From an uncultured Hyphomicrobiaceae bacterium (GTDB lineage: Bacteria > Pseudomonadota > Alphaproteobacteria > Rhizobiales > CAMYJA01): a stretch of DNA of 44,163 bases. The position numbers were made by a program, and so were the translations under genes. The notes under the pieces are model-generated. The model saw only the letters and a list, made by a program, of their open reading frames with translations, made no database searches and was not told the origin of the DNA. Location of the stretch: assembly GCA_947258705.1 (NCBI GenBank), contig CAMYJA010000022.1, positions 1,825 to 45,987 of the forward strand, given 5' to 3'. Positions 8,610 to 10,790 of this stretch are shown here, piece after piece (position 1 is the first letter of the stretch; each line of letters starts with the position of its first letter).

Positions 8610-9536
8610 ATGCAAAGGCCGCTTCCATCCCTGAAAGCATTGCGCGCATTCGAAACGGCGGCCCGCCATCTTAGTTTCAAGAAGGCGGGGCAGGAGCTGC
8701 ACGTTACGCCGGCAGCGATCAGCCAACAGATCAAGGCGCTGGAAGAAGAGTTCGGCGAGGCACTTTTCCTGCGTCAGAACCGCACGCTCGTGCTGACCCA
8801 TGCCGGGCGTCTTATCCTGCCGGAATTACGCGAGGGATTCGGAGGCATCGCGAGGGCCGTTCAACGGCTATACGATTTACAGAGTAGATGCGTATTAAAG
8901 GTGGCATCGGCGCCGGCCTTTGCCGCCAAGTGGCTGGTGCCCAATTTGGAGAGTTTTTCAGGATTACATCCCGGATATGACGTATACGTCGTCGCAGCAC
9001 ACGAGCTGATAGACTATGACCTGGAGCACATCGATATCGGTATCCGCTACGGCTACGGCGACTACCCGGGCCTGCTCAGCGAGAAGCTGTTGCCGGAGGC
9101 ACTGTTCCCGGTCTGCAGCCCGCGGCTCATTGAAACCAGAAGCGCATTGCGCACGCCGGACGATCTGCGCGGCCACACATTGCTGCACGATGACAGCCTG
9201 GGGTTCGATGATACGTTCCCGGACTGGGCCGCCTGGCTGGCTGCCGTCGGAGCAAACGACGTCGAAGCAATTGCCGGACCTCGATTCAACACGGCGTCGG
9301 ATGCCATTGAAGCAGCCATCCAGGGCGCCGGCATCCTGTTGGCGCGCCAGTCCGTCGCGAGCGCCGACATCTCTGCAGGAAAACTTGTCCGTCTGTTCGA
9401 ATTTGACTTTCCACTCAAGCAGAGTTTTCATGTCGTCTATAGTGAAGCGAATATCCGCCGTCCCGAGATCCAGGCCTTTCGCAACTGGCTTGTCAAAGAA
9501 ATGACAAATATTCCAGACGGAACGCCGCGTGCATGA
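8610..9536 (+). CDS. LysR-type transcriptional regulator (GcvA-like)
   Basis: The 308-residue product has an N-terminal winged helix-turn-helix (about residues 6-65: LKALRAFETAARHLSFKKAG, ELHVTPAAISQQIKALEEEF) followed by a periplasmic-binding-like effector domain (about 90-300). RPLPSLKALRAFETAARHLS and the substrate-domain motifs IDIGIRYGYGDYPGL and LLHDDS are typical of the GcvA/AmpR-like branch, but the effector cannot be read from sequence. AAGGAG lies ten bases before the ATG. Divergent placement from the HAD-like gene suggests control of that gene and of its own expression. Confidence 0.92.
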   Translation: MQRPLPSLKALRAFETAARHLSFKKAGQELHVTPAAISQQIKALEEEFGEALFLRQNRTLVLTHAGRLILPELREGFGGIARAVQRLYDLQSRCVLKVASAPAFAAKWLVPNLESFSGLHPGYDVYVVAAHELIDYDLEHIDIGIRYGYGDYPGLLSEKLLPEALFPVCSPRLIETRSALRTPDDLRGHTLLHDDSLGFDDTFPDWAAWLAAVGANDVEAIAGPRFNTASDAIEAAIQGAGILLARQSVASADISAGKLVRLFEFDFPLKQSFHVVYSEANIRRPEIQAFRNWLVKEMTNIPDGTPRA

Positions 9537-9609: not shown

Positions 9610-9631
9610 TTTAACACCTCTAACCTTGAGG

Positions 9632-9645
9632 TTAACATAGGTCAA
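9632..9645. promoter_or_regulatory. second FNR-like half-conserved palindrome
   Basis: TTAACATAGGTCAA fits TTRAY-N4-RTCAA and lies 22 bases after the first site, about 87 bases before the ATG. The sequence immediately before it (TAACCT-TG-AGGTTA, 9621-9634) is itself a short palindrome that overlaps its left arm. A role is inferred only from similarity to the consensus. Confidence 0.35.
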
Positions 9646-9672
9646 TTTCTCGTCTTTTTATGACGAGGAAAC

Positions 9673-9714
9673 ATCAATCCAGATTGATCAATCCAGATAG
9701 ATCAATCAAAATGG
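9673..9714. repeat. three 14-bp direct repeats in the leader
   Basis: The units are atcaatccagattg (9673-9686), atcaatccagatag (9687-9700) and atcaatcaaaatgg (9701-9714). They sit directly before the start region of the Arg-rich gene. A small hairpin, ctcgtc / gacgag (9649-9654 and 9662-9667), precedes them. Confidence 0.7.
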
Positions 9715-9725
9715 AGTACCTTGAA

Positions 9726-10061
9726 ATGAAAAGGTTTCATTTGTTCGCCGTCGCATTGACGGTTGCAATCTATGCATTGTTTGCCCCCTTCAGCGCTGCC
9801 CAGGCGGCGCCAATCGGCCCGGCAGCAAATATGAGCACGTTGCTGGCTCCAAACGCATCGAGCGATTTGCTCCAGCCGGTCCATTGGCGTCGTTACCGGC
9901 ATTGTCACACGCGCTGGGTCCGCCGATGCGGCTATCGCTGGCGACGCAGATGTGTACGCTGGCGTCGTGGCCGGTGTGTACGCCGGAGATACGTCCGCGT
10001 ATGGCGCTGCTGGAGAGCACCGAGGACTTTCTGCCATCGCCGTGGCCGAAGGATCCGGTAA
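9726..10061 (+). CDS. small secreted Arg/Trp/Cys-rich octad-repeat protein
   Basis: The 111-residue product has a clear signal peptide (KRFHLFAVALTVAIYALFAP, cleavage likely after AQA near residue 28). A linker of about 25 residues follows, then an extremely basic tail from residue 54. In the tail Cys occurs at 60, 68, 76, 84, 95 and 103, that is every eight residues with one 11-residue step. The units read HWRRYRHC, HTRWVRRC, GYRWRRRC, VRWRRGRC. Of the last 58 residues 26 are Arg, 6 Trp and 6 Cys. I do not know the function; periplasmic disulfide bonding and contact with lipid or polyanions are possible. ATG 9726 has GGAG nine bases upstream; an upstream ATG at 9660 would bury the signal. 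Two FNR-like palindromes precede it and a BA14K-like gene follows. Confidence 0.7.
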   Translation: MKRFHLFAVALTVAIYALFAPFSAAQAAPIGPAANMSTLLAPNASSDLLQPVHWRRYRHCHTRWVRRCGYRWRRRCVRWRRGRCVRRRYVRVWRCWRAPRTFCHRRGRRIR

Positions 10062-10277: not shown

Positions 10278-10790
10278 ATGAGACAATTCGTCATTGCAAC
10301 AACGCTCGTCCTGGGCATTTTCGCGAGCCTGGGCGGCACGGCGACACGGACGCACGCGGCAACGGCTGTCGATCGGTCCTTGATGCCCGCCAACACCATG
10401 TCATCCGTCATGAACCTGTCCCGGGCAGGCAATCTACTGCCCCTGCAAACCCCCGCCTCTGAGTCCCGGAGCCTGCAGAAGGCCGTCAAAGTGGCAAAAA
10501 GGGTGAAGAGACGCGGACGACGCGGGCGGCGCGGCTACAGGAAAAGGCGCAAGGGCGGCGGCATCCCCAAAGGCGTCGCCATCGGCCTGGGAATCGCCAT
10601 ACTCGGCATAATGGCTGAAGAGGCCGCACAATCGGGCGGTTATGGCGGTGATTATGGTTATGACAATGGTTATGAAAACGCCATGAGAGCATGCGCGCGC
10701 CGTTTCAGGTCGTTTGACTGGGACTCCGGCACATATGTCACTTATGGCGGCAGTGTCAGGCTGTGCCCTTACCTTAGACCTTATTGGTAA
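10278..10790 (+). CDS. BA14K-like secreted protein with basic region
   Basis: The 170-residue product has a signal peptide (residues 1 to about 28), a linker, a basic block at 68-95 (KVAKRVKRRGRRGRRGYRKR), a hydrophobic Gly-rich helix at 98-113 and a Gly/Tyr segment. A C-terminal BA14K-type motif at 139-163 (CARRFRSFDWDSGTYVTYGG, then LCP) resembles the small immunoreactive/lectin-like envelope proteins of Brucella and relatives. The function in this organism is unknown; surface or periplasmic location is inferred. The linker MPANTMSSVMNLSRAGNLLP looks like the PAANMSTLLAPNASSDLLQP linker of the gene before it, so the two may be related in their N-terminal halves. It lies 216 bp downstream on the same strand. 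Confidence 0.72.
   Translation: MRQFVIATTLVLGIFASLGGTATRTHAATAVDRSLMPANTMSSVMNLSRAGNLLPLQTPASESRSLQKAVKVAKRVKRRGRRGRRGYRKRRKGGGIPKGVAIGLGIAILGIMAEEAAQSGGYGGDYGYDNGYENAMRACARRFRSFDWDSGTYVTYGGSVRLCPYLRPYW

Follow-up and report, generated by a model that had tools for sequence, protein, structure and literature searches.

The window, as we call the whole stretch of 44,163 nucleotides analysed here, carries on its forward strand a coding sequence at positions 9726..10061 that specifies 111 amino acids and a stop codon, as annotated from its translation and homologues. On the same strand, the gene is preceded by one encoding a GcvA-like LysR regulator (8610-9536) and followed directly by one encoding a BA14K-family exported protein (10278..10790, PF07886 E 1.3e-9), a possible functional partner. 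Residues 1-27 (9726..9806) form a signal peptide (AQA^AP), assigned from the sequence and from a layout common to every homologue read, with the cleavage site placed by eye. This is followed by a neutral linker of 24 residues (28-51, 9807..9878), predicted to be disordered in both AlphaFold2 models (pLDDT <50 for residues 24-51), and by a family core, VHWRRYRHCH (residues 52-61, 9879..9908), which harbors the first cysteine (C60) and in which V52, H59 and H61 are invariant in alignment A4. The tail, comprising the last 58 residues, contains 26 Arg together with six Trp and six Cys, but neither Asp nor Glu. The net charge of residues 52-111, essentially without acidic residues, is +26, and the mature part holds only four His (4.7%). 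Retranslation and recounting reproduce the original prediction of an exported open reading frame with cysteines at positions 60, 68, 76, 84, 95 and 103 and 26 Arg among its last 58 residues.

The frame is credibly coding, given the presence of a GGAG sequence 9 nt 5' of its ATG, its signal peptide, the existence of homologues with the same layout and the excess of synonymous changes between two Hyphomicrobium relatives (L054 and L055), whose 50 compared codons include 18 synonymous and 7 non-synonymous changes. At the level of codon comparison, this excess shows the relatives to be translated and under purifying selection. The gene is present in a single copy in its own genome. An antisense open reading frame (10082-9702; 126 aa, rich in Ala, Pro, Ser and Thr) was discarded because it mirrors the CGN codons for Arg; it has no signal peptide, and no homologue of it was seen.

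Upstream of the gene, a consensus scan located promoter-like hexamers (TTAACA and TAACAT, spacer 16; 9611..9638, forward strand), a weak hit with 9/12 matches that is not evidence of function. Inside this site lies a dyad, ACCTC-N7-GAGGT (9616..9632, assigned to neither strand), a possible operator on sequence grounds and the only exact copy of this dyad in the genome; a MerR/SoxR-like operator reading was set aside, as the spacing does not appear to suit such sites. The EcfG promoter motif GGAAC-N15-18-CGTT was not found upstream of the gene, and its count in the window is at chance. The forward-strand 5' leader (9639..9725), containing 14-bp repeats (9673-9707) and the GGAG ribosome-binding site, appears structured (RNA fold of 9636-9745, z-score -3.4), and this leader and start region could be a translational control element; it has no Rfam match. 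Of the three stems predicted, one involves base pairing of the region that contains the ribosome-binding site and the start.

The six cysteines of the tail are separated by steps of 8, 8, 8, 11 and 8 residues. In 20,000 composition shuffles of the tail, at least four Cys pairs at distance 8 were obtained with p=5e-5, a series of four Cys spaced by 8 with p=1.6e-3 and a series of this length at whatever step between 2 and 19 with p=1.8e-2; the octad spacing exceeds chance. To describe the tail as octads that each abound in Arg and Trp is broadly accurate, but their register is interrupted between C84 and C95 and Trp has no fixed place in it. At the DNA level, part of the tail coincides with a faint repeat of 24 nt (9946-9962 and 9970-9986, 82% identity), which is marginal, with p=0.007 at lag 24 and p=0.15 over all lags in codon-order shuffles.

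Database searches returned nothing credible for the protein in Pfam, NCBIfam, PHROGs or PADLOC, bearing out the earlier view that it fits no named family. Searches of plasmids and viral contigs found no relatives, and neither the PDB, by sequence or by fold, nor a viral fold library provided a significant match; pore-toxin stems among the weak fold matches were set aside as merely long hairpins. BLAST with the protein recovers Hyphomicrobium relatives. Single-sequence matches weaker than about E 1e-4 were excluded once their ORFs had been inspected, most of them lying in a wrong frame or in an Arg-rich frame open by chance. Profile searches from the relatives' alignments identified the family, often with several genes per genome, in 67 of the 103 Hyphomicrobiaceae genomes (E up to 1e-4). 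Only a minority of the order's other families carry it, and it was found in 1 of 384 additional genomes sampled throughout the class. These sequence searches assign the protein to a family without a name, whose small, exported, basic/aromatic members diverge quickly and are nearly confined to the order that includes Hyphomicrobium.

Against a family HMM built without it, the protein scores 27.2 bits (E 4.5e-7 for 2000 sequences), a value reached by none of 2000 shuffles of its mature part. When the linker was kept and the tail alone was shuffled, 78 of 2000 shuffles matched the HMM as well (7 of 2000 without composition correction). Much of the score rests on the signal peptide, linker and VHWRRYRHCH core, and the tail contributes modest evidence. 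By the same HMM, the protein displays the combination of signal peptide, AAPxGxA linker and V[HY][WY]R..RHxH core that marks the family. Relatives bearing a C-x4-G-x3-C motif (e.g., L054, L055, L096, L130 and L142) share with it a signal peptide, an AAPxGPA linker, a VHWRxYRHCH core and a basic/aromatic hairpin with cysteines symmetric about an x-Gly pair, the hairpin and its Cys symmetry being predictions in the case of the window protein. They differ from it in that their rings span 10 to 18 residues, versus a modelled 28 to 44, and in being His-rich (mean of 14.5% in the relatives' mature parts) where the window protein uses only Arg. Further relatives, such as L121, L122, L187 and L188, have the same N-terminal half joined to basic/aromatic tails without Cys.

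We assessed Cys symmetry on 61 unique, non-redundant tails that carry two or more Cys, from about 70 members read. The C-x4-G-x3-C motif is present in 54 of these 61 tails (e.g., CWWRHGHRHC, CWWRNGVRRC and CAVRHGHRHC), and places both Cys equidistant from the x-Gly bond, which is the arrangement of a ten-residue disulfide ring over a two-residue beta-turn. An odd-spaced Cys pair centred on x-Gly was detected in 57 tails, against 4.9 (sd 2.2, maximum 11) in 300 shuffles, although members were gathered by homology to ring-bearing seeds, so that the ring frequency cannot serve as an unbiased estimate. The second Cys pair, which varies, did not enter into the gathering of members in the same way. 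Eight members (P0001 included) carry two nested pairs on one x-Gly centre, versus 0.09 in shuffles, with the second symmetric pair following a C-x3-C-x8-C-x3-C pattern in L096, L125, L127, L130, L149 and L181 and a C-x5-C-x8-C-x5-C pattern in L174. The outermost Cys pair is flanked as RHCH...[FYWV]CH, a context that the window protein shares with L096, L125, L129 and L132. As read from these alignments, what the family shares is two Cys placed symmetrically around an x-Gly turn, and not the octad. The octad of the original prediction is thus not supported as a conserved design: C-x7-C, whose loss from all homologues was named there as a ground for rejection, is absent from every other family member sampled (about 70, none of them from the genus or family of the window protein). 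In terms of the structural model described below, the octad is best read as an idiosyncratic elongation of the symmetric Cys-pair design. The window protein, from which the C-x4-G-x3-C ring of the family is itself absent, is for this reason an aberrant, enlarged member of this unnamed Hyphomicrobium-order family.

AlphaFold2 was run twice on the protein, once with four sequences and once without alignment and without the signal peptide. Both runs predict one long beta-hairpin with a two-residue turn at R81-G82 (9966..9971), where MAFFT aligns G82 with the turn Gly of the relatives. The predicted first strand spans residues 53-80 (9882..9965; C60, C68 and C76) with four sequences and residues 59-80 without alignment, and the second spans residues 83-110 (9972..10055; C84, C95 and C103) and 83-105, respectively, all on the forward strand. 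With four sequences, pLDDT reaches 90-95 over residues 61-100, although the hairpin comes from just the top model of five (pTM 0.31 and 0.28) and the remaining models have pLDDT of 51-61. AlphaFold2 is unreliable for short repetitive peptides. The predicted register (i+j=163) sets C60 opposite C103 and C68 opposite C95, and an octad on both arms is what would be expected of a ladder with rungs eight residues apart in that register. On this model, the best reading of the octad is a ladder of disulfides along a hairpin that has been enlarged. C76 and C84 lie three residues out of register, and could bond each other across a distorted tip or stay free. The family HMM, however, puts C68/C76, and not C68/C95, onto the family Cys pair, and the x-Gly-centred ladder of the window protein taken alone gives p=0.012 by composition and 0.16 with Cys positions fixed. 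Together with the off-register C76/C84 pair and the option of local loops, these results lead us to hold the details of the modelled hairpin at somewhat under even odds. The disulfide-stapled cationic rod envisaged in the original prediction comes near this predicted long hairpin, and the genome encodes DsbB (E 1.4e-31); the disulfides themselves, as well as a polyanion or LPS ligand, an envelope role and a partnership with BA14K, are what we infer for this protein.

The reading we favor, with a probability of roughly 45%, is that of a DsbB-oxidised cationic hairpin with a C60-C103 and C68-C95 ladder that would bind polyanions of its own envelope, such as LPS. The protein would be exported and then oxidised in the periplasm, where the tail would fold into one long antiparallel beta-hairpin held by cross-strand disulfides between C60 and C103 and between C68 and C95, with C76 and C84 at the tip either bonded to each other or free. 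With a charge of about +26 and essentially no acidic residue, such a hairpin would be stable only against a polyanion and should seek one, the likeliest partner being the cell's own envelope, through lipid A and core phosphates of LPS or an anionic surface polysaccharide, which the hairpin would cross-link or shield.

Several other explanations bear on the same tail. Its cysteines might instead form local disulfides (C60-C68, C76-C84 and C95-C103), giving one C-x7-C loop apiece, with the octad arising by expansion of a 24-bp unit coding for RRCxxRW and the tail constituting a string of small cationic loops. The spacing of 8 is common to all three local pairs and the DNA repeat stands out at lag 24, but that repeat is not significant over all lags, both structure models return a single long hairpin and the Cys rings of the relatives are C-x8-C around x-Gly, never C-x7-C, so that we regard such an array as unlikely. 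It would be more surprising still if the Cys spacing were incidental, in an expressed and exported product selected only for positive charge and aromatic residues. The relatives that couple the same N-terminal half to Cys-free tails fit such weak constraint, as do the 4% of tail shuffles that, with the linker kept, equal the family-HMM score of the protein; the octad statistics and the x-Gly-centred symmetry in nearly all Cys-bearing relatives speak against it.

Metal-binding and antimicrobial roles are live rivals to the envelope-polyanion reading, with each given only a small chance. In the former, Cys/His pairs (RHCH...FCH) and Trp would bind or buffer Cu or Zn in the periplasm, as suggested by the RHCH and [FYWV]CH contexts around the outer Cys in several members and by the His-rich tails of the relatives. 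The window protein, however, has Arg in place of His, no metal transport or sensor gene lies within the flanks read, and with DsbB present periplasmic Cys would be oxidised. In the latter, the protein would be a bacterial analogue of beta-hairpin antimicrobial peptides, secreted and released against competitors. A strong preference for Arg over Lys, Trp in the strands, Gly, Arg or Asn at the turn and symmetric Cys pairs are all features listed for that class (PMC13001179). The class is nevertheless without His (PMC13001179), in which the relatives are rich, and the tail is more than twice as long as its peptides; no immunity gene, protease or exporter adjoins the gene, and both the several paralogues per genome in relatives and the presence of the family in most Hyphomicrobiaceae suit a housekeeping envelope role better.

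The envelope-polyanion hairpin nonetheless invites comparison with the tachyplesins, polyphemusins, arenicins and protegrins of animals, which are Arg/Trp-rich antiparallel hairpins with nested cross-strand disulfides, as predicted for the window protein. Exact matches to the tachyplesin turn are probable. These animal peptides are eukaryotic, 11-25 residues long and almost without His, and we claim no sequence relation to them. A 2026 review describes fewer than 30 families in the class, benchmarked against eukaryotic composition, and sets its limits at a mature length of 11-25 residues and a charge of 1 to 8 (PMC13001179). The window protein falls outside these limits with a tail of about 58 residues and a net charge of +26 and, by analogy, may work like such peptides while being a non-member, its length and charge being out of range. 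We consider it possible, though rather doubtful, that Hyphomicrobium-order bacteria encode a rapidly evolving set of exported cationic beta-hairpins with disulfide ladders, which would be convergent with the hairpin defence peptides of animals and serve the envelope of the producer, with the window protein as the longest known such ladder and the ring growing by symmetric extension of both arms. If the hairpin model is true, a family without a curated model and with several copies per genome in the Hyphomicrobiaceae would be a bacterial counterpart of beta-hairpin peptides, the envelope role of the order's many small basic exported proteins, BA14K among them, would become testable, and natural long-arm disulfide ladders would be on offer for structure work.

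The downstream BA14K protein, which has a signal peptide, is the only one detected in the genome. Like the window protein, members of the BA14K family (PF07886; Brucella 14-kDa lectin-like immunoreactive protein) are small and exported, and many carry a basic/aromatic repeat stretch before their C-terminal domain, in this order commonly between signal peptide and domain. That C-terminal domain is absent from the window protein, which has no PF07886 match and hence is not a BA14K protein. In Brucella, BA14K is secreted, is needed for normal spleen colonisation and is under the control of envelope and general stress regulators (PMC10592609, PMC12354254). One relative (L004) joins an N-terminal core like that of the window protein to a BA14K domain, and the presence of this core in the L085 / L004 BA14K protein suggests, at the sequence level, that tails have been shuffled between small exported proteins of the order. 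By association only, the adjoining BA14K gene, the joining of both parts in L004 and the envelope stress control of Brucella BA14K place the family in envelope biology. The gene order of GcvA-like regulator, window-type gene and BA14K was not seen within the 4-kb flanks of three Hyphomicrobium relatives.

Additional observations concern neighboring and similar proteins. The BA14K gene directly 3' of the window gene, on the same strand, encodes a Lys/Arg-rich KRRGRRGRRGYRKRRKGG stretch, and in the L085 / L004 BA14K protein the N-terminal half with the core of the window protein is followed by an RGPRY repeat. Near a family member, the minus strand of L145 (2345-2902) encodes a Gly/His-rich exported protein ending in DCYWRHGRRFCRY, in which a family-type Cys-ring hairpin would serve as the C-terminal module, although the protein otherwise looks unrelated. 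In a sister type of small exported proteins (L042, L050, L104, L106 and L184), a WG-rich turn is spanned by a C-x12/13-C spacing and the end is CxxRHGC-like (e.g., ECRVRWGWGWRYRRCMRRHGC); this is probably another Cys-closed basic hairpin.
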